DNA of 64,000 bases from a virus. Position numbers and translations under genes: made by a program. The notes beneath the pieces were generated by a model. That model was not told the DNA's origin. It searched no databases and saw nothing but the letters and a program-made list of their open reading frames with translations. The stretch spans positions 44,412-108,411 of the IMG/VR virus record IMGVR_UViG_3300001450_009970; one strand, given 5' to 3'. Of this stretch, positions 4,281-56,351 are shown piece after piece. Within the stretch, counting starts at the first letter, position 1. Every line of letters starts with the position of its first letter.

Positions 4281-5453
4281 TTAAAAAAGTGCTGTTGTAT
4301 AAACAAGATTTCTATTTAATTGTGGTAATCCAGAAGGGACTATTATTCGATTAAGAGGTTCAAGAATAAATTTTTCAAATTGCTTTTCATATGATATTTG
4401 TGCAGCAAATTCATAAGGATAATCCCCAGCTATATAAGCAAAGACATTACAAAATGGATCATCTGTATGATAGAATCTAATCTTTTGGCCTGACGTAATT
4501 AACTGATATTTATTTTTGTATTTTGAATTATTTAATAGATAATTGTAGTATCCACCAGCCCTAACATGAAAAGGACATTTTGATGCTATTTGAAATTCTG
4601 TTTTATCATCAATTATGTATTTCTTATAGTTTGATATTGACCGATTTGCGCTTATATCTTCAATGTTAGCCATCTTAAATTCATCTTTAATATCCTTTAG
4701 AACTCCTATAAGCTTATCGGATCTTAATTCATCCTGAGCAAATATCCAGGAAACAAGATCTTTTAGTTTTTTACGAGCAAATGACGGTGTAGAAGATTGA
4801 ATTAATTCCAGACCTTTTGCTTTTATTGAAGATAAATTATCATAATGCTTACCATCTTTCCAGATTATATTTTGAACATATTTCTTTTTAGCTACCCATA
4901 TTCCGTTAGTTGCTATAGTTTCAAGTTCAAAATTTAAGAAGTTTTCTGAATTATGCTTGTTTGCATAAATTTCAAAACATTTATTTAAGTAAGGACCTAA
5001 ACGATATTCATTAAGCTTTAGAATAAAATCGATAATGCCACCAGACCAGTTAACCGCTTTCATTGCTTCATTAAAAACTAAATAACCTGAATCCGTATCT
5101 GTATAAATCCATACAGATTCTTTCATCGACGGTAATGGCTTATCATTATCTAATCCTAATATTTTATGCAATTTATAATCAGTTGGCCAAAAGTCCTTGA
5201 AATATCGTTGAACACATTTTTCAGAATATTTAATAGCATCTTGACCTTGTAATGTAATTGCTTCAGCAATATTTAAATTAAAGAAGTGAAAATATTCATT
5301 AGCAAAGGCTCCATAAATACTGTTAATTATAAGTTTTATGGCTTGTTCCTGTGTAGAGCAATCTAAAGATTCATTTTCTAGTTGAATAATATATTCCGAT
5401 AATTCAGCTTTAGTCATTCCACTAACATCCAAGATATTAGCAAATTCAGTCAT
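4281..5453 (-). CDS. 43B: DNA polymerase family B, C-terminal half (palm motifs B and C, thumb)
   Basis: This 390-residue protein is the second half of a split T4-type gp43. It begins in the helical fingers, carries motif B (K40-LIINSIYG-48) and motif C (IYTDTDSGYL, aspartates 119 and 121), and continues through the thumb. It has no exonuclease or motif A, which lie in the protein encoded at 9970-11379. Together the halves have 469 + 390 residues against 898 in T4 gp43, so little is missing. The split falls in the fingers coiled coil, between motifs A and B. The start ATG (5453-5451) is one base past the clamp stop codon, so clamp and this half are translationally coupled. The two halves must assemble to give a working polymerase, which is inference from the conserved catalytic residues in both. 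Confidence 0.92.
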   Translation of the reverse strand: MTEFANILDVSGMTKAELSEYIIQLENESLDCSTQEQAIKLIINSIYGAFANEYFHFFNLNIAEAITLQGQDAIKYSEKCVQRYFKDFWPTDYKLHKILGLDNDKPLPSMKESVWIYTDTDSGYLVFNEAMKAVNWSGGIIDFILKLNEYRLGPYLNKCFEIYANKHNSENFLNFELETIATNGIWVAKKKYVQNIIWKDGKHYDNLSSIKAKGLELIQSSTPSFARKKLKDLVSWIFAQDELRSDKLIGVLKDIKDEFKMANIEDISANRSISNYKKYIIDDKTEFQIASKCPFHVRAGGYYNYLLNNSKYKNKYQLITSGQKIRFYHTDDPFCNVFAYIAGDYPYEFAAQISYEKQFEKFILEPLNRIIVPSGLPQLNRNLVYTTALF

Positions 5454-9969: not shown

Positions 9970-11379
9970 TTACTTGTTTTTAAGTTGTTCTTTTAATTTT
10001 ACTAATTCAATTTCTAAAAATAAATGTCGTTTCTTAAGTGTTTTTCTTTGACCATATAATTCACCTAGCACCTGTTTTAATATAGAATCTCCTTCATTTT
10101 TAAATACTGCACCAGTGGATGACACAATTAAAGATTTATCTTTTCGTTTTTCTTCAATTTCATTTTGATCGCTTAATTTTTCAACAAATACTTCAGGAGA
10201 TATATTTATTTGGCGCATTACGGAAGGATATAGTGAAGCAAAATCAAAGCATGCCACTGCATCATAAAGACCAGGTACTGGTTGCTTTACATAAGCACCT
10301 TCATAAGCACCTGTTACTTTAGATGTATATTCATCCGCAATAACCATATTATTTTGATAAAACTTTTTAAACATTAATGCTTCAGTAAGATTTACTGCAG
10401 AACTCGCTTTATAGATAGTTAGATTATTTAATGCCGCTACAGAAAGAATTGTATTAACAGTCTTTAGTTTTCTATGAATCAATGTTACTAATCCTGCATC
10501 AGCAGCATTATAAGCAACATATTTTAAATAGTCATTTTCATACATATCCTGTATCGATCCTTGATATTTTACTTTATTAATACCAAGAACCTGTCGGCCT
10601 GCAGTATCTAATGAATGATTTTCTTTTGGTGAAACAGTCCTATCGTATGACTTATAAATTTCCATGTAATCTATCATTCCTAGATGAATAGGCAGATCTC
10701 CGCGATATGATAATTCATTTACTGGTGATGCAATTGCTGGATCGATTCCAAGATTTCTAGCTCGTTTAGTTAAATAGGCCCAGTCAAATCTAAACCAGTT
10801 CCAACCTGTTACAAGTGCAAATTTAGGAAGCATCTTTGAAAAGAATGTATATAACATATCAAATTCAGTTTCAAAGCAAATATATTTAAATTTAAATGTA
10901 AGGCCTAATTTAGCAAAATGTTCATCAATCATAACTTGAACTCGTGATTGATCCGCTTGACTCATTGGTTTCCAACCTAATACAATAGCTTGTAAATCAT
11001 CAGTTGTTACAGCAATAGTAGTAACACGTTCTTTAGCTATTTCAGTATTCGGGAATCCATCAATTACTTCGGTTTCAATATCAATAGAACTCATCTTAGG
11101 AAAATTGACAGCCGTAATTACATCTTTATCTTCTTTAGGAAGGTTTTCAATAATTTCATAGATATCAAATTTAGATAATTTACCTTTGACTGGCCTTACT
11201 TTCTTAACTGATTTACCATCCCAGTTTTTAAATTCATCAGATTTATTTGGATCTGTATCTGCACATACTTTCCAGGATTTGAAATTAGAAATATCGAATT
11301 TTTTAATTTGCTTATTTCCTTTAGCATCAAAAAATGAAATATTCAATGCGCCATATTGTTTTTGAATATCTAATATCAT
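9970..11379 (-). CDS. 43A: DNA polymerase family B, N-terminal half (exonuclease domain and motif A)
   Basis: This 469-residue protein is the first half of a split gp43. The proofreading exonuclease is complete: ExoI D100-I-E102 (SSIDIETEV), ExoII GWNWFRFDWAYL with D199, and ExoIII Y290-NAAD-294. Polymerase motif A follows (D379-FASLYPS-386, then VMRQINISPE). The chain stops in a charged fingers helix, LYGQRKTLKKRHLF to LKEQLKNK. Motifs B and C are encoded separately at 4281-5453. Its start overlaps the preceding zinc-ribbon gene by four bases (ATGA). Four genes and about 4.5 kb separate the halves; no trace of intron, intein or homing endonuclease is visible at either break. Confidence 0.93.
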   Translation of the reverse strand: MILDIQKQYGALNISFFDAKGNKQIKKFDISNFKSWKVCADTDPNKSDEFKNWDGKSVKKVRPVKGKLSKFDIYEIIENLPKEDKDVITAVNFPKMSSIDIETEVIDGFPNTEIAKERVTTIAVTTDDLQAIVLGWKPMSQADQSRVQVMIDEHFAKLGLTFKFKYICFETEFDMLYTFFSKMLPKFALVTGWNWFRFDWAYLTKRARNLGIDPAIASPVNELSYRGDLPIHLGMIDYMEIYKSYDRTVSPKENHSLDTAGRQVLGINKVKYQGSIQDMYENDYLKYVAYNAADAGLVTLIHRKLKTVNTILSVAALNNLTIYKASSAVNLTEALMFKKFYQNNMVIADEYTSKVTGAYEGAYVKQPVPGLYDAVACFDFASLYPSVMRQINISPEVFVEKLSDQNEIEEKRKDKSLIVSSTGAVFKNEGDSILKQVLGELYGQRKTLKKRHLFLEIELVKLKEQLKNK

Positions 11380-11753: not shown

Positions 11754-12392
11754 TTAATCAATACCCATTACGTTATTAAAACCTTGCTGTTTCAAAGCTT
11801 TTATTCCGTTATCTTGATGTCTTTTATTTTCACCTTCAACTTCGTAATATCCGCCATTTGCATCAACATGAGCTTTAATTTTTTTAGATGCAAAGTATTT
11901 TTCAATATATAATAATTGTTGAGACCTATTAAAATCTCTAAATTCATTATGATCGAATTCCATTGATTCATTTACGAATCTTGAGAATTTCATAAATGCT
12001 GATTCATCTACTTCATCCTCGTCTTCATCATCAATATCGCCATTTAAGCTATGAATTTTATCACCACTTCCGTTAGGTAATCCACCGTCGGCTCCAGGCA
12101 TTGAAGTAGGACCCATTCCATTTACATTTCCTGGAGTTACTTCTTCTATCAATTGATCATTATCAAATTTTATGGCTGAAGTTGTATTATAATCACTAAT
12201 TCTTGATTTAATACCATAAAGATCCATCATCATTTTAACAACAGTAGAACCTTTCTTTTTATCTTTCAATTGAAAGTAAGTTACTTTATCATTTGATTGA
12301 GATATTATTTGACTCACATATTGACTCAACTCTTTAGAAATATCTAATGCTGAATCACCTGATAATTGTCCTTTAAAGTTTGATTCGTTCAT
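11754..12392 (-). CDS. Two-module protein with an internal capsid-targeting-like tag
   Basis: The 212-residue product is not recognised. Residues 1-85 form a charged module and 86-132 a Gly/Pro/Asp-rich linker that becomes strongly acidic (DDEDEDEVDE). At 134-143 the sequence MKFSRFVNES appears, the same tag that opens many neighbouring proteins, with possible cleavage after E142. The remaining 70 residues form a small domain (SQQLLYIEKYF, HVDANGGYYEVEGENKR). Two readings fit: an earlier gene fused in frame upstream of a tagged gene, or a precursor cut into two parts by the prohead protease. It lies six bases after the ParB-like gene and ends the cassette before the 11664-11690 hairpin. Confidence 0.75.
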   Translation of the reverse strand: MNESNFKGQLSGDSALDISKELSQYVSQIISQSNDKVTYFQLKDKKKGSTVVKMMMDLYGIKSRISDYNTTSAIKFDNDQLIEEVTPGNVNGMGPTSMPGADGGLPNGSGDKIHSLNGDIDDEDEDEVDESAFMKFSRFVNESMEFDHNEFRDFNRSQQLLYIEKYFASKKIKAHVDANGGYYEVEGENKRHQDNGIKALKQQGFNNVMGID

Positions 12393-12398
12393 ATTGAT

Positions 12399-13136
12399 TT
12401 ATTTTTTATAAGGAGCTCTAACATCGATTTTACCGCCACTTAATTCTTTTGCAACTTTATCAACCTGTTCTGGTTCAATCTTTGGCATATCCGCTCTTGG
12501 TGGTGCACCTTCTGGTGGTCCAACTCTTTGAATAGCAGCTAAGGCTTTTGCAATTGTAGCTTCACCTCTTTTTTCAAACCAAGCAATAGCTTTTTCTTTA
12601 TTATAGAATTTTTTATCCATTCCTTCACCGTCATAGATTGCAGCTTTAACATTATCCATAGTTGATGTGAAAATATTAGCATCTCCAGCAACAGCTAGAC
12701 CTCTTTTATTTCCTAATGCATCTCCGGCAGCTCTAAGAACTGGAACTAAATCACCAATATTTAATTCAGATTGTACTCCTGTTACTTTTGCAGAAGGATT
12801 GTTGAACATTGTAGCAGCCCATCTATGATGACCATCTAGAATTCTGTTATCTTGTGAAATAACAGCACCAAGATCTCCACCTTCAACTCCTACAATAGCC
12901 ATACTTAATGCCTTAGCTAAATAAACTGCATCCTGTGATGGCTTTAATGATTTAGCTGGAATAGAAGCTTTTTTAGTTACTACTACATCGTCTTGAGTAT
13001 CTCCATCTTTTTTACCAGCTTTAAAAAATTCCTTGTCATTTTTATTTCCAGGATTTGGAAATTTTGATGGATCGATTTCTTTAGTTTTTAAGCTTTCATT
13101 AATAACGAATTGCTCAAATGATATTAATTTTTTCAT
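12399..13136 (-). CDS. Capsid-tagged ParB/sulfiredoxin-like domain protein
   Basis: The 245-residue protein begins with the tag MKKLISFEQFVINES, with possible prohead-protease cleavage after INE (residue 14). Residues 60-115 carry a ParB-like fold signature: a helix (AVYLAKALSMAI) followed by ISQDNRILDGHHRWAATM, where DGHHR matches the DGxHR nucleotide/catalytic motif of ParB-Srx proteins. ParB-family domains bind CTP or act as nucleases or phosphotransferases; which applies here cannot be told. The C-terminal third is Pro-rich and charged (GPPEGAPPRADMPKIEPEQ). A late-promoter-like motif lies 17 bases upstream (13154-13162). I infer packaging into the head and delivery with the DNA. Confidence 0.8.
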   Translation of the reverse strand: MKKLISFEQFVINESLKTKEIDPSKFPNPGNKNDKEFFKAGKKDGDTQDDVVVTKKASIPAKSLKPSQDAVYLAKALSMAIVGVEGGDLGAVISQDNRILDGHHRWAATMFNNPSAKVTGVQSELNIGDLVPVLRAAGDALGNKRGLAVAGDANIFTSTMDNVKAAIYDGEGMDKKFYNKEKAIAWFEKRGEATIAKALAAIQRVGPPEGAPPRADMPKIEPEQVDKVAKELSGGKIDVRAPYKK

Positions 13137-13178: not shown

Positions 13179-13493
13179 TTAGTCATAAACTACTGCACCA
13201 TCATCACCATAAGTAAATACTGCGGTTTCACCTTCTAGATCTAAAGCAATTACATCTTCATCAGGCTCTAAAAAATCTCCGGCAGTTCCAGAATCGTCAT
13301 ATTTTTTAAGGTCTTTCATCTTGCCTTTAGCAATAACATTATAGACATCTCCATGATAATCCTCAGCTTTATCACCAACCTTTACTTTATTAAAAGGCTT
13401 TATTTTTTTAGCTTCATTAACTTCATCGTTAGTTGATTCTTTTAAATTATAAGATTCATTTACAAAATCTTCAAATGATTCAATATTTCTCAT
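13179..13493 (-). CDS. Capsid-tagged small beta-barrel protein
   Basis: The 104-residue product starts with the tag MRNIESFEDFVNES. A second possible cleavage site, EVNE before AKKIKPF, lies at residue 27. The remaining 77 residues look like a single SH3-like barrel (KPFNKVKVGDKAEDYHGDVY, then DEDVIALDLEGETAVFTYG). Similar KVGD-type modules occur inside the 741-residue protein next to it. It forms its own unit, with a GATAAATAA motif 19 bases upstream at 13513-13521 and another after its stop. Function is unknown. Confidence 0.8.
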   Translation of the reverse strand: MRNIESFEDFVNESYNLKESTNDEVNEAKKIKPFNKVKVGDKAEDYHGDVYNVIAKGKMKDLKKYDDSGTAGDFLEPDEDVIALDLEGETAVFTYGDDGAVVYD

Positions 13494-13521: not shown

Positions 13522-15747
13522 TTAAAGTGATCTATATTTCTTTTGAATAGCCTGCCAAACTTTTTCTGGTGTAGTATTTCTACCGGTAGCAAATTTATTA
13601 ACGCTAGTAGAACCACGTTTATTAGGTGAAGTTATTGATAATTGAATGAAAGGTTTGTCACCAATTTCGTTATATTGGAATGCCCATATTAATGCTAATT
13701 CATCAACTTTAACAGTGAATTCTACTGCACCATAAAAGTTTTCTTTTACATCTTCAACCTTCATATTTCCTAAATATTTGTCACCCTTTAATAAAAATTC
13801 CGTAAAAGATTTATACCAGTCGTTCGATCTTTTTTCAAATTCTGACAACGGCCATGCTTCATTAACAGATTCAAATTTCAGATTTTGAGTAACTTCTGGT
13901 GGAAGATCGTTATATTCAGAATCAATATATTTTTCTACATTATCTGGGTCTTTAACTGCTGTTAATAGTGCTGATTCTCTTTCGTCATCACTTAATTCAT
14001 CCCATTTAATTGATTTTTGAGATTTCTCGTTTAAAAATTCGTCTAGTGATTCCGCAACTAATTTCATGTTTGGCTTTGATTTTGTCTGATTAATATTATC
14101 AAATATTCGTTGTCCAAATTTAGAAAGTTGATATGTTTTTTCACCGCTTTCATTTTTTGATACTTTAAAGTAATTCATGTTTGATTTGAACCATCGAGTT
14201 TGATTAACTGATTTTCCTAAATCTTCTTCAACACGAATTAACATATCCTTGATTTGTTCTTCGGTCATTATATTGTTACCAATATATTTGATAATTGAAT
14301 TACGTAAGGGTGCTTTTTCATTTATACGTCTAGCATCATAAATTCCATATTTACGTTTAATAGTATGTTTAGCTTCATTAACACTAACTATCTTAGCTTG
14401 TTTTATACGTGATTTATTTACTAATTCTTTTTCTTTCGTTTCAGCTTCTTCTTTAGTTTTAAATATTCCAGATTTAGCATTTTCCCCATCTTGGGTTTTA
14501 TATTCAACTCTAAAACCTTCCCCTGATTGATTAACTGATTCAGTTATAGAATTCAACATTTCCTGTTTACTAAATACTAAGCTTTTTGGATGACTTGAAA
14601 GTTCAAATGTAGTACTATACATAGCACTAAGTTTAGCACCAATTTCTTTACCATTTTTATCTGTTACGATATATTCATTGAAAGCGTTTGACTTTCTACC
14701 ATAATCAGTAACAGTATAAACATTAGTATCTGTATTAAATTTAGATCCGATTTCTATTTTATTGAAAATTTTAGTACCTAGCATACTGATTTTACTTCCA
14801 GAAATAGTTCCCTCATTTAAGTCATAAGATTCACTAAATAATCTTCTACCTGTTTTATCTTCTAGATGTAATTTTGCTTTAGGATATTTCTCTTGCATTA
14901 CATTAAATGTAGCAGGAGCAACATCTGGAGTAGAAACTGGTTCTTGATGAATTACTTTGCCATCTTGTATAACTACAATTACTGCTGGATAGCTTCCTTG
15001 AGTTGCAGCTTTATATACTTTACGTCTAGATGCTTCAGTAACTAATGATTCATCCATTACCATATATTTAGATGGAACTATAAATTCTCCTTGTCCACTT
15101 TTTACAATCATTCCTTTATTACCACGAGTCATCTTAATAACTTTATAAACATCGTCATAATCTAAAGAAACACCTTCCTTATCTAGAATTTCTTCAACAA
15201 AATGTGGAGCTCCCAGAACTACAAAATCACCTTTCTTGAATTTAGATTCGTTAATTTCTTTATTTTCCTCATTTGCTAAAGGATTAGGAATAGTAATTGA
15301 TTTACCTTGATAAAATCTCTTTTTTAGTTTATCAATAGTATCATTCTTCTTTAAATAGTAAGGATGCTCATATTGATCTGAATCATCTCCTACAATAAGA
15401 ATAATATGTTCTCCTTCATCAGAACTATATATTTTAAAGTCTGAACCTAATACTTTACCTTTTATATTCTTTTTAGCCTCATTTACAGATTCGGTATATA
15501 ATATTTCAGAATCAAAATTATATTTAGGACCATCTTGTTCAGCATCTTGTACATCTATAGTTCCGTTTTTATTAATATTGATAACTCTGAATTCAGTTCC
15601 AACTGAGGCACCTTTATGCATTTCTTCATCTCTATCATCGTCACCAGTTTGATATATTACAACAATATCACCGACTTTTGATCGTTCGCCATTGTAATAT
15701 TTTGCAGATGCCTCATTCAAGAAGTCTTCAAATTTTTCTATTGCCAT
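13522..15747 (-). CDS. Capsid-tagged polyprotein-like chain of small modules
   Basis: The 741-residue protein opens with MAIEKFEDFLNEASAKY. Prohead-protease-like sites recur along the chain: LNE|A at residue 12, VNE|A at 90, INE|S at 167, VTE|A at 238, LNE|G at 312, ITE|S at 403, VNE|A at 458, LNE|K at 574 and VNE|A at 630, with a weaker INE|K at 477. Near-identical ESVNEA hexapeptides occur at 86-91 and 626-631. Cutting at these points would release nine pieces of about 55-116 residues. Several look like SH3-type barrels (SKVGDIVVIYQTGDD; FKKGDFVVLGAPH) and one like a winged helix (460-560). The motif 15765-15773 lies 17 bases upstream. The functions of the pieces are unknown. Confidence 0.85.
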   Translation of the reverse strand: MAIEKFEDFLNEASAKYYNGERSKVGDIVVIYQTGDDDRDEEMHKGASVGTEFRVININKNGTIDVQDAEQDGPKYNFDSEILYTESVNEAKKNIKGKVLGSDFKIYSSDEGEHIILIVGDDSDQYEHPYYLKKNDTIDKLKKRFYQGKSITIPNPLANEENKEINESKFKKGDFVVLGAPHFVEEILDKEGVSLDYDDVYKVIKMTRGNKGMIVKSGQGEFIVPSKYMVMDESLVTEASRRKVYKAATQGSYPAVIVVIQDGKVIHQEPVSTPDVAPATFNVMQEKYPKAKLHLEDKTGRRLFSESYDLNEGTISGSKISMLGTKIFNKIEIGSKFNTDTNVYTVTDYGRKSNAFNEYIVTDKNGKEIGAKLSAMYSTTFELSSHPKSLVFSKQEMLNSITESVNQSGEGFRVEYKTQDGENAKSGIFKTKEEAETKEKELVNKSRIKQAKIVSVNEAKHTIKRKYGIYDARRINEKAPLRNSIIKYIGNNIMTEEQIKDMLIRVEEDLGKSVNQTRWFKSNMNYFKVSKNESGEKTYQLSKFGQRIFDNINQTKSKPNMKLVAESLDEFLNEKSQKSIKWDELSDDERESALLTAVKDPDNVEKYIDSEYNDLPPEVTQNLKFESVNEAWPLSEFEKRSNDWYKSFTEFLLKGDKYLGNMKVEDVKENFYGAVEFTVKVDELALIWAFQYNEIGDKPFIQLSITSPNKRGSTSVNKFATGRNTTPEKVWQAIQKKYRSL

Positions 15748-15764
15748 AATATAATTTTCTTTTA

Positions 15765-15773
15765 TTATTTATC
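15765..15773 (-). promoter_or_regulatory. Late-promoter-like motif GATAAATAA overlapping a stop codon
   Basis: The final TAA of the motif is the stop codon of the NMNAT-like gene (15765-16619). The motif ends 17 bases before the start of the 741-residue polyprotein-like gene, giving that gene its own late unit. Confidence 0.62.
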
Positions 15774-16619
15774 TTCAGATAGTTCGTCTTTTAATTGAGG
15801 ATAATATTGATGTGTAGTTGTATCAGTCATGGATTTGAATGATTTTATATCATCTTCTATTAAAGCTTTACGAACTTTAGATGCACTAATATTATCATCA
15901 GTACGTTTTATTTCATGAGCTTTAAATTCTGGATCTACATTTAAATCCAATCTATAAGAATCTTTTTGAATTTGACCGCTATAGGCTTTTAATCTATCTG
16001 ATCCAGTACCCCACAAAATAGGCTCATATTCAGGACGTAATTCATTATAAATTGTATCTATACCCGCTCTTGAAATAGTTCTGAATCCTTCTATAAATTT
16101 ATGTTTCTTTGCAAGATCGTTAAATATTTGCTCTATTAAACCTTCACTAAACGGTGTTTTTTCCTTGTTAATTTTCTTTGCACGCACCATAAGTACTATT
16201 ACAGGATATCCATTTTCTTCGGACAAAGATTTAAGAACTTTTATATGTCCTAGCGTCGGAGGTTGAAAACGTCCCGCAATAATATTAACTTTTTTATTGC
16301 CAGGTTCTGTTGAATCTACCTTTAAAGCTTCATTTAAAGATTCAGATATTTTTCCGGTTTTAGATACTTTATAATATGTAGGTATTTTATCCCAATCTTT
16401 ACCGTTAGTTTTTATGCCTGAATACATTTGATTTTTATCACTTTTCCATGCACCACCAGTTCCATCTTTATATTTGATCATGGTTGGTGTTTCTTCATAA
16501 AACCACCAATCGCCATCAGAATGCTGTGCTAAATATCTTGCCCAATCTGGGATATTTTTAAATTTAGGAAATTGTTTTCCTTCATTTATGAAATCAAAAA
16601 ATCTTTTGAATCTATTCAT
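15765..16619 (-). CDS. Capsid-tagged nucleotidyltransferase, NMN adenylyltransferase-like
   Basis: The 284-residue protein starts MNRFKRFFDFINEGKQF, with possible cleavage after INE at residue 13. A module of about 84 residues follows. A second site, SESLNE|A at residue 97, comes immediately before a complete HIGH-type nucleotidyltransferase domain: NIIAGRFQPPTLGHIKVL (GRFQPPTLGH at 116-125), LWGTGSDR and ISASKVRKAL (near 247), the ISxxxxR motif. This family includes NMN and pantetheine-phosphate adenylyltransferases and related cytidylyltransferases; the substrate cannot be told here. Cleavage at 97 would free the catalytic domain. It starts one base after the ligase-like gene, so the two are probably coupled. 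Confidence 0.85.
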   Translation of the reverse strand: MNRFKRFFDFINEGKQFPKFKNIPDWARYLAQHSDGDWWFYEETPTMIKYKDGTGGAWKSDKNQMYSGIKTNGKDWDKIPTYYKVSKTGKISESLNEALKVDSTEPGNKKVNIIAGRFQPPTLGHIKVLKSLSEENGYPVIVLMVRAKKINKEKTPFSEGLIEQIFNDLAKKHKFIEGFRTISRAGIDTIYNELRPEYEPILWGTGSDRLKAYSGQIQKDSYRLDLNVDPEFKAHEIKRTDDNISASKVRKALIEDDIKSFKSMTDTTTHQYYPQLKDELSEDK

Positions 16620-54872: not shown

Positions 54873-56351
54873 TTACTTTACCTTGATTCCGTATGTTTTA
54901 TCAGACTTAGCTAAGGCTGTATCGTATTTTCCATCAAACCCGCTTACAACAAAAGTTTTTTGTGGATTGACAACGACTCCTATTTTTTCCATCAATTCCC
55001 TATTAATAAGCATAGGAGTAGATTTAGATGAACGATCAACAACGCTAAAATGCATTTTACTATATGATATTCCTCTAAATTTAATATCAAGTTCTATTAT
55101 AGGACGTTTTGTAACCGTATCACCTACTTCGGCATTAGCGTAACCAACAATTTTTGATTTCATTTTTTTATTTCCAGCAGACCAATTTAAATAGCCATTT
55201 TTTTCTGACATTTTATCCGCATGAACTGATGACGATTTAGTACCGTTTCCACTATCAAATTTAGCAACATATTCACCAAATCCAGTAAGATTAACAACTT
55301 CCATATATCCTATTTCAGTAACATTGACAGACCAATTAGATTTATCTTTTATGAAATCTATAATATCTTGTAATATAGATTTTCCAATAACTTTTTTAAT
55401 TCCTTTAGTCCCAGGAGAAGCATTTACTTCAAGTATATAATTCTTTTTAGTTTTATCATCAACAATAATATCAACACCACACCAATGACATCCCATAGCA
55501 TCTGCAGCCTTAACTGCTAAATTAATTTGTTCTTCAGTTAATTTTACATTTTCAACAGATCCACCAAGTGAATGATTAGTTCTAAAATCTTTTTTGTCTC
55601 CTCTATTACGTCGCATATATCCAATGATTTTAACATTGTCTTTATTGTTTCCGTGATAGTCAAATCTTTTAGTTAAGACCTGAATTCTAATATCGTAATC
55701 CGAATCAATTTTTTCTTGAATTAAAGTTTCAGTATCAGAAAGTTTCCACATTGTCTGTAAAACAGATTTAAGCGATCCTTGTGAATCAATAATAGAAACA
55801 CCTATTCCTTGAGATCCTGAAAGAGTCTTTAAAATTATAGGAAATTTTCCACCTATTTTTTTAATTGCATCATCTAATGAATCTATACTAGGAACTAATG
55901 CCGTTCTAGGCGTCGGTAATAAATGCTGCTCTAGTTTTTGTGCAGTTAAATATTTATTTTCACAATCCAGGATTGAAGATAATGAATTAATGCAGAAGAA
56001 TCCATTACTTTCAAATAATGATAGAATTCCACGAGTATATGTGTTTTTTACAACACCACGTCTAGCTATTATAACAGTATTTTCTTTATTAATAACAAAT
56101 CCTTTTGATTCACCTTTATTTGTTAGCGTAATATTTCCATCATCATCTGGATCACTAATAGTACAGTCTTTTAAGCAAAATAAAAATCCGTTCATTCCAG
56201 AATTTACAGCCTTTTCAATTAAAAACTGTGGTGTATCTTGTGAATCTGGATCTACTGGCGTATTTGTCATTACAACAAGATTTAATTTATTACCTAGCTG
56301 AACTGCTTCAGTTAGCATATCATCAAATCTCTTGAACCTTATATTTTGCAT
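54873..56351 (-). CDS. Capsid-tagged RimK-like ATP-grasp ligase fused to a RimB-like retropepsin domain
   Basis: The 492-residue protein starts MQNIRFKRFDDMLTEAVQLG, matching the capsid tag with a cut candidate after LTE (residue 15). Residues 25-330 form a RimK-type ATP-grasp enzyme: K175 and GSQGIGV 179-185 (ATP loop), LIQEKIDSDYDIRI, GVDIIVDD, and metal ligands in ILEVNASPG (E308, N310). RimK adds glutamates to the C-terminus of ribosomal protein S6. Residues 350-492 resemble the RimB retropepsin-like domain (EYVAKFDSGNGTKSSSVHAD with D366; FSVVDRSSKSTPMLINRELM). The variant FDSGNGTKSSS for the usual DTGAxTSS keeps the Asp. The gene is monocistronic with its own promoter motif. Confidence 0.87.
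   Translation of the reverse strand: MQNIRFKRFDDMLTEAVQLGNKLNLVVMTNTPVDPDSQDTPQFLIEKAVNSGMNGFLFCLKDCTISDPDDDGNITLTNKGESKGFVINKENTVIIARRGVVKNTYTRGILSLFESNGFFCINSLSSILDCENKYLTAQKLEQHLLPTPRTALVPSIDSLDDAIKKIGGKFPIILKTLSGSQGIGVSIIDSQGSLKSVLQTMWKLSDTETLIQEKIDSDYDIRIQVLTKRFDYHGNNKDNVKIIGYMRRNRGDKKDFRTNHSLGGSVENVKLTEEQINLAVKAADAMGCHWCGVDIIVDDKTKKNYILEVNASPGTKGIKKVIGKSILQDIIDFIKDKSNWSVNVTEIGYMEVVNLTGFGEYVAKFDSGNGTKSSSVHADKMSEKNGYLNWSAGNKKMKSKIVGYANAEVGDTVTKRPIIELDIKFRGISYSKMHFSVVDRSSKSTPMLINRELMEKIGVVVNPQKTFVVSGFDGKYDTALAKSDKTYGIKVK

Follow-up and report, generated by a model that had tools for sequence, protein, structure and literature searches.

The T4 gp22 scaffold is a head protein that is cut many times. 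In phiKZ and SPN3US, long propeptides of head proteins are cut several times (PMC9026906, PMC10052503). The internal proteins of T4 are organized with one tag and one product per gene (PMC9026906, PMC3012670). Large multidomain chains packaged into phage heads, and thought to be released by an embedded peptidase, have been described as polyvalent proteins; the authors compare them with the polyproteins of RNA viruses (Iyer et al. 2017, PMC5512222). Open-access papers yielded no description of a chain that is delivered by a tag and split into several internal proteins by the prohead protease, with subscription papers and preprints lying outside the search.

The window analyzed here, a stretch of 64,000 nucleotides, is part of a 108,411-base virus record, and the same phage is also represented by a 166,532-base record with an identical gene. 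A 741-residue open reading frame, which a sequence-only reading of this DNA had reported without its strand, proved to be genuine: on the minus strand, it runs from an ATG at 15747 to a stop at 13522 and is open throughout. The gene and its tag are located as follows (a slash marks a predicted cut):

13522..15747, minus strand: polyprotein ORF P0001, 741 aa; open frame, identical copy in IMGVR_UViG_3300025168_000033
15712..15747, minus strand: N-terminal tag, residues 1-12, MAIEKFEDFLNE/A; form shared with about 30 tags of the phage and with T4 IPII/IPIII

In the absence of virion proteomics, we consider it probable from sequence data that P0001 is a modular internal-protein polyprotein of a T4-like phage, delivered by its tag and cut by the prohead protease. 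Tags resembling MKNLQSYDEFLNE/A open about 30 ORFs of the window phage and are similar to the T4 IPII/IPIII tag. The P0001 gene sits amid replication and repair genes outside the head operon, and the T4 ip genes are likewise found outside it. Searches of Pfam, PHROGs and PDB sequences with the whole chain gave no significant family match, and no peptidase domain was detected in it. Met561, considered as an internal restart, has no clear ribosome-binding site; the main start likewise lacks one. As a separate observation, a family-B DNA polymerase is apparently split on the minus strand into 9970-11379 (469 aa, DFASLYPSVMR region) and 4281-5453 (390 aa, KLIINSIYGAF), and the approximately 4.5 kb between the halves carry ORFs that, read off the sequence, resemble ribonucleotide reductase subunits and a sliding clamp.

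All of the sites listed by the sequence-only reading (12, 90, 167, 238, 312, 403, 458, 574 and 630) are present, and ESVNEA indeed occurs verbatim twice, at residues 86-91 and 626-631. Cutting at these sites would yield the following predicted pieces:

15478..15711, minus strand: piece 1, residues 13-90, end TESVNE/A; site motif only, relatives outside the same phage not found
15247..15477, minus strand: piece 2, residues 91-167, end KEINE/S; site motif only, no relative found
15034..15246, minus strand: piece 3, residues 168-238, end ESLVTE/A; no relative found, C-terminal border set because the N-terminal border of piece 4 fixes it
14812..15033, minus strand: piece 4, residues 239-312, end YDLNE/G; about 74-92% identity to nine other loci, fold 253-308
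14539..14811, minus strand: piece 5, residues 313-403, end NSITE/S; 84% identity to the final module of a tagged protein (191 aa) in L018/L019
14374..14538, minus strand: piece 6, residues 404-458, end VSVNE/A; 78% identity to L013 177-221, fold 409-455 with pLDDT 79-91
14026..14373, minus strand: piece 7, residues 459-574, winged-helix-like, with a tag-like end MKLVAESLDEFLNE/K; 26-33% identity to four relatives
13858..14025, minus strand: piece 8, residues 575-630, end FESVNE/A; site motif and exact ESVNEA repeat, low model confidence
13525..13857, minus strand: piece 9, residues 631-741; single alpha/beta unit 634-738 modelled with pLDDT 54-66, no relative found

The strict motif [ILV][NT]E[AGSK] occurs nine times in the 728-residue body, compared to 0.49 in shuffled sequences (0/5000 reach nine), which corresponds to an approximately 18-fold excess. 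Its density per 1000 aa is 12.4 in P0001, 2.0 in other tagged bodies (n = 22) and 0.43 in untagged proteins (n = 75), so that P0001 shows 29 times the rate of untagged proteins of the same phage. The loose pattern [ILV]xE alone is not enriched (16 vs 13.2 in shuffles), as would be expected if common motifs merely happened to recur in an unrelated multidomain protein. The excess of the strict motif stands against this explanation, which we find hardly credible.

Two additional sites were absent from the sequence-only reading, RINE/K at 477 and LVAE/S at 566. The first fits the motif and is counted among the nine strict occurrences, but it is probably a chance match, because it is not conserved in four homologues of its module, piece 7; the second is a possible extra cut site. 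At site 574, P1' is Lys, which departs from the T4 consensus, and NE/K is also found in tags of relatives. Homology supports six of the nine sites (the tag site, 238, 312, 403, 458 and 574), whereas 90, 167 and 630 rest on the motif alone. The proposed number of nine pieces is therefore provisional, a best count and not a result.

When 2.9 million viral contigs were scanned with the whole chain, no full-length relative emerged save the phage itself, and a tblastn search of 50,697 phage records recovered nothing related to P0001 or to a polyprotein in the related genome G004. Single pieces did match in the contig scan: residues 236-307, alone or slightly extended, in seven loci and residues 410-454 in one. 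Single-module scans with pieces 1, 2, 3, 7 and 9 returned the same phage only; the relatives of piece 7 emerged from sister genomes. In bacterial and archaeal genomes, piece 4 was not found (390 pattern matches, 0 confirmed).

Piece 4 stands immediately after the N-terminal tag in five loci (L006, L009, L010, L011, L012). In four others, L007 (1247 aa), L008 (at least 1315 aa), L083 (1016 aa) and L086 (1163 aa), it sits inside the chain with a site on either side. When ten loci were aligned by the piece's own sequence, P1 was always Glu and P3 Ile, Leu or Val at both ends; P1' was Ala at 10/10 left borders and Ala, Gly, Ser or Asp at the right borders, while P2 and the spacing varied. An invariant P1 Glu and a hydrophobic P3 next to a variable P2 point to a protease pattern and not to a generic linker. 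The other pieces with relatives show comparable borders. Piece 5 in L018/L019 begins VNE/ADISGSK and meets a stop codon after NSITI where P0001 has NSITE/S, and piece 6 in L013 is flanked by MNE/G and NLNE/E. Piece 7 comes first after the tag in three relatives and is internal in the fourth, its end always being LNE or INE. Since one and the same module can follow an N-terminal tag here and an internal site there, the two kinds of site are interchangeable.

For a test of the borders, all tagged or site-rich proteins of the window phage, seven relatives and one short fragment were compared uncut. In these comparisons, 73 of 155 internal local-alignment ends lay no more than 8 residues from a site, where 21.6 would be expected (0/20000 simulations reach 73), a coincidence of homology borders with sites that also contradicts a chance run of motifs. 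The remaining 82 ends had no regex site nearby, in part owing to the strictness of the regex and the ragged ends of local alignments. As the relatives have modules in common, their alignments are not fully independent, and the probability should be taken as indicative only.

Exchange of single modules is also directly visible. Single-module tagged genes have counterparts inside longer chains: an 89-aa tagged gene of the window phage (G001_5386) matches residues 702-788 of the G004 polyprotein, and the gene at 11754-12392 matches its residues 851-942. The chains of L007 and L083 have the same start and end with a different middle and one moved module, their junctions falling at linkers, and one module is present twice in the L008 chain. 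Linker DNA is often nearly identical within a chain, for example GAATCAGTAGTTACTGAA in G004 and L086, which would fit linkers acting as recombination joints, although no comparison with codon bias was made. The proposal of a single gene that delivers several small internal proteins by means of one tag thus gains support, as the predicted pieces behave like independent evolutionary units whose borders fall at the predicted sites in several other phages.

Residues 561-575 of P0001 (MKLVAESLDEFLNEK) and a stretch of G006_11815 (MKNLKSLTDFSVNEA) look like complete embedded tags, which suggests that fusion of tagged genes may be one source of such chains, although there are only two clear cases and the effect is not significant. 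As a general rule of origin, embedded complete tags were rejected (6 in 26 kaa vs 22 in 246 kaa, not significant). The two stretches could also be taken to mean that P0001 is a multidomain head protein of the polyvalent type that loses only its tag and is packaged as one chain, the internal sites being relics of fused tagged genes or flexible linkers; polyvalent proteins have 2-15 domains, and examples packaged uncut are known (PMC5512222). However, the statistics of embedded tags are weak, and most internal linkers retain only the cleavage-like part without the targeting part. In addition, P1 Glu and the hydrophobic P3 are kept at both borders of piece 4 in all ten loci, where P2 and length are free to vary. 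We therefore regard an uncut chain as unlikely, without dismissing it.

AlphaFold2 gave the full chain a mean pLDDT of 50 and a pTM of 0.26, with units at 253-308, 409-455 and 479-554 and, less surely, at 634-738 (pLDDT 54-66). The model drops below pLDDT 50 around sites 312, 403, 574 and 630, and site 458 lies at the edge of such a stretch. Predicted domains spanning the sites would have refuted the sequence-only reading; the four modelled domains end before 312, 403, 458, 574 and 630, while 90, 167 and 238 are outside the reach of the model, in which residues 1-242 are of low confidence and uninformative. The winged-helix-like module was recovered when piece 7 was modelled alone (core pLDDT 80-88). 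Its best PDB matches are winged-helix regulators, but they are weak (E 2.8e-3, TM about 0.47) and suggestive only. No confirmation was obtained for several SH3-like modules, since residues 1-242 are without homologues as well as poorly modelled.

The window phage encodes a Peptidase_S77 protein of the T4 gp21 family (PF03420, E 6.2e-11) and a Gp23 major capsid protein (PF07068, E 6.1e-36), both above the Pfam cut-off, and their genes adjoin a T4-type portal. The S77 protease is present in G001, G005, G008 and G010. Protease and capsid genes were not found in G003, G004, G006 and G007, of which G004 is a 19-kb fragment, G007 ends inside the portal gene, and G003 and G006 are probably fragments. 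Two relatives carry such modules within the head operon: the G004 polyprotein, which bears piece 4, starts 21 bases behind the portal gene, and the ORF of L013 bearing piece 6 lies between portal and S77 protease. Furthermore, a module of L007 (residues 177-278) has relatives (H1-H35) among genes with a prohead protease, portal or major capsid annotation in halovirus, Synechococcus, Roseobacter and other phages. In HGTV-1 it is located inside the protease gene, in S-CBS1 near the start of the capsid gene, and in Salicola phage SCTP-2 it stands by itself. The distribution of this widespread head-associated domain, which has no Pfam match, supports, without proving, that such modules work inside heads.

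The place of the G004 polyprotein directly behind the portal is that of core genes in T4, and in giant phages the prohead protease makes several cuts in long propeptides (PMC9026906, PMC10052503). Both points would fit a scaffold-like prohead core protein, chopped like T4 gp22 into fragments that are mostly waste, expelled or degraded in maturation, instead of functional cargo. However, the modules are diverse folded domains (winged-helix-like here, cytidyltransferase-like in a neighbour) and not a coiled-coil scaffold, and they are exchanged singly and also occur as stand-alone tagged proteins such as the 89-aa product above. In the window phage, moreover, a core-like gene is present separately and the protease has a long C-terminal extension, and we judge the scaffold explanation very improbable. 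The S77 protease, at L003:13343-15232 (minus strand), is longer at its C terminus by some 400 residues, which hold repeated VAESVDNSIEYSK-like units and several tag-like sites; this suggests a putative protease-scaffold fusion; its best full-length relatives are in the huge uncultured phages LR756500 and LR756502. About 40 kb of head region from each of two huge-phage genomes and from Lak-A1 contained no polyprotein of the P0001 kind.

Genes around P0001 carry tags or modules of this type:

15765..16619, minus strand: upstream neighbour, a two-module version with tag, module, SESLNE97/A and a cytidyltransferase-like module; nucleotidyltransferase match for the latter
13179..13493, minus strand: downstream neighbour, single-module tagged protein of 104 aa with a second site, DEVNE27/A; ORF and site motif
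11754..12392, minus strand: nearby gene; residues 1-88 show 45% identity to the internal module 851-942 of the 1315-aa G004 polyprotein (E 2.6e-18)

In the upstream neighbour, homology to G006_11815 begins at residue 95, beside the site, with 51% identity. Other tagged proteins were noted in passing. A 492-aa product (54873-56351, minus strand) has a RimK-like ATP-grasp domain and, behind it, a weak match to the 'ATP-dependent zinc protease' (aspartyl-protease-like) family and is apparently an enzyme addressed to the head. A 245-aa protein (12399-13136, minus strand) has a ParB-like DGHHRWAA motif and a phrog_2859 match; ParB-like domains also occur in head-packaged polyvalent proteins (PMC5512222). 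In L002 (17022-17687, minus strand), a tagged 221-aa protein carries a zincin-like HEIEHLTQ motif, and a related ORF, L083:1604-2617, has HEIEHITQ and no evident tag.

For the preferred reading of P0001 as a cut polyprotein, we propose the following course, in which the tag, the sites, the protease gene and the borders and exchange of modules are seen in the sequence, and packaging, cleavage, ejection and the functions of the pieces are inferred. The 12-residue tag would act as a capsid-targeting sequence that brings the whole 80-kDa chain into the assembling prohead core. There, the gp21-type S77 protease would cut after Glu in the tag and in the tag-like linkers ([ILV]-x-E/A, S, G or K), stripping the tag and releasing up to nine small folded proteins that would remain in the head with the DNA. 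The released pieces would probably be ejected into the host, like T4 internal proteins; both ejection and an anti-defence function are suggested only by analogy to T4 IPI (PMC3012670). The linkers would double as joints for the gain, loss and exchange of modules between phages. Only tentatively, and short of favouring it, we extend this to an uncultured T4-like phage lineage with a cassette system, in which the protease-site linker is the recombination joint. Small effector modules would be added, lost, duplicated and reordered in polyproteins of up to 1300 residues or more, delivered together and each freed by the head protease. A polyprotein of the P0001 kind, with or without such a system, would open a large catalogue of small head-delivered, probably anti-defence proteins to reading from sequence alone, and points to a plug-in format by which several foreign proteins could be packaged into T4-like heads.

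Comparing P0001 to known systems, it is similar to T4 IPI/IPII/IPIII (and Alt) in the form of its N-terminal tag (MKTYQEFIAE/A vs MAIEKFEDFLNE/A), the gp21-type protease, the small, folded and diverse cargo and the gene position outside the head operon (PMC3012670, PMC9026906). Two criteria for a T4-type internal protein are met, a short N-terminal targeting sequence ending in a gp21 site and the presence of a gp21-type protease and Gp23 in the same phage. However, a single tag is shared here by up to nine modules, linked into one chain by additional cut sites. With nine predicted pieces and borders backed by exchange, the criterion of one product per gene is unmet, and P0001 is therefore not a plain T4-type internal protein. 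In T4 gp22 and the phiKZ and SPN3US propeptides, a gp21-like protease cuts many times after Glu within the prohead, as proposed for P0001, but those cuts remove scaffold or propeptide, whereas the cuts in P0001 would separate folded, individually exchanged modules. Polyvalent proteins likewise combine several unrelated domains per chain and are mosaic between phages, a criterion that P0001 meets with its shuffled modules; unlike them, it has no detected peptidase or other listed domain, its pieces are mostly 55-116 aa, and its likely cutter is the separate prohead protease. The criterion of cut sites between domains is met by homology borders at 238, 312, 403, 458 and 574 and by model confidence at 312, 403, 458, 574 and 630. 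P0001 differs from RNA-virus polyproteins in that it shows no homology to them and belongs to a DNA phage, with a protease acting in trans and cutting probably confined to the prohead. What it would share with them is a single translation product from which a viral protease releases several mature proteins, and the polyprotein version would mean that a DNA phage uses this trick of RNA viruses for injected cargo.
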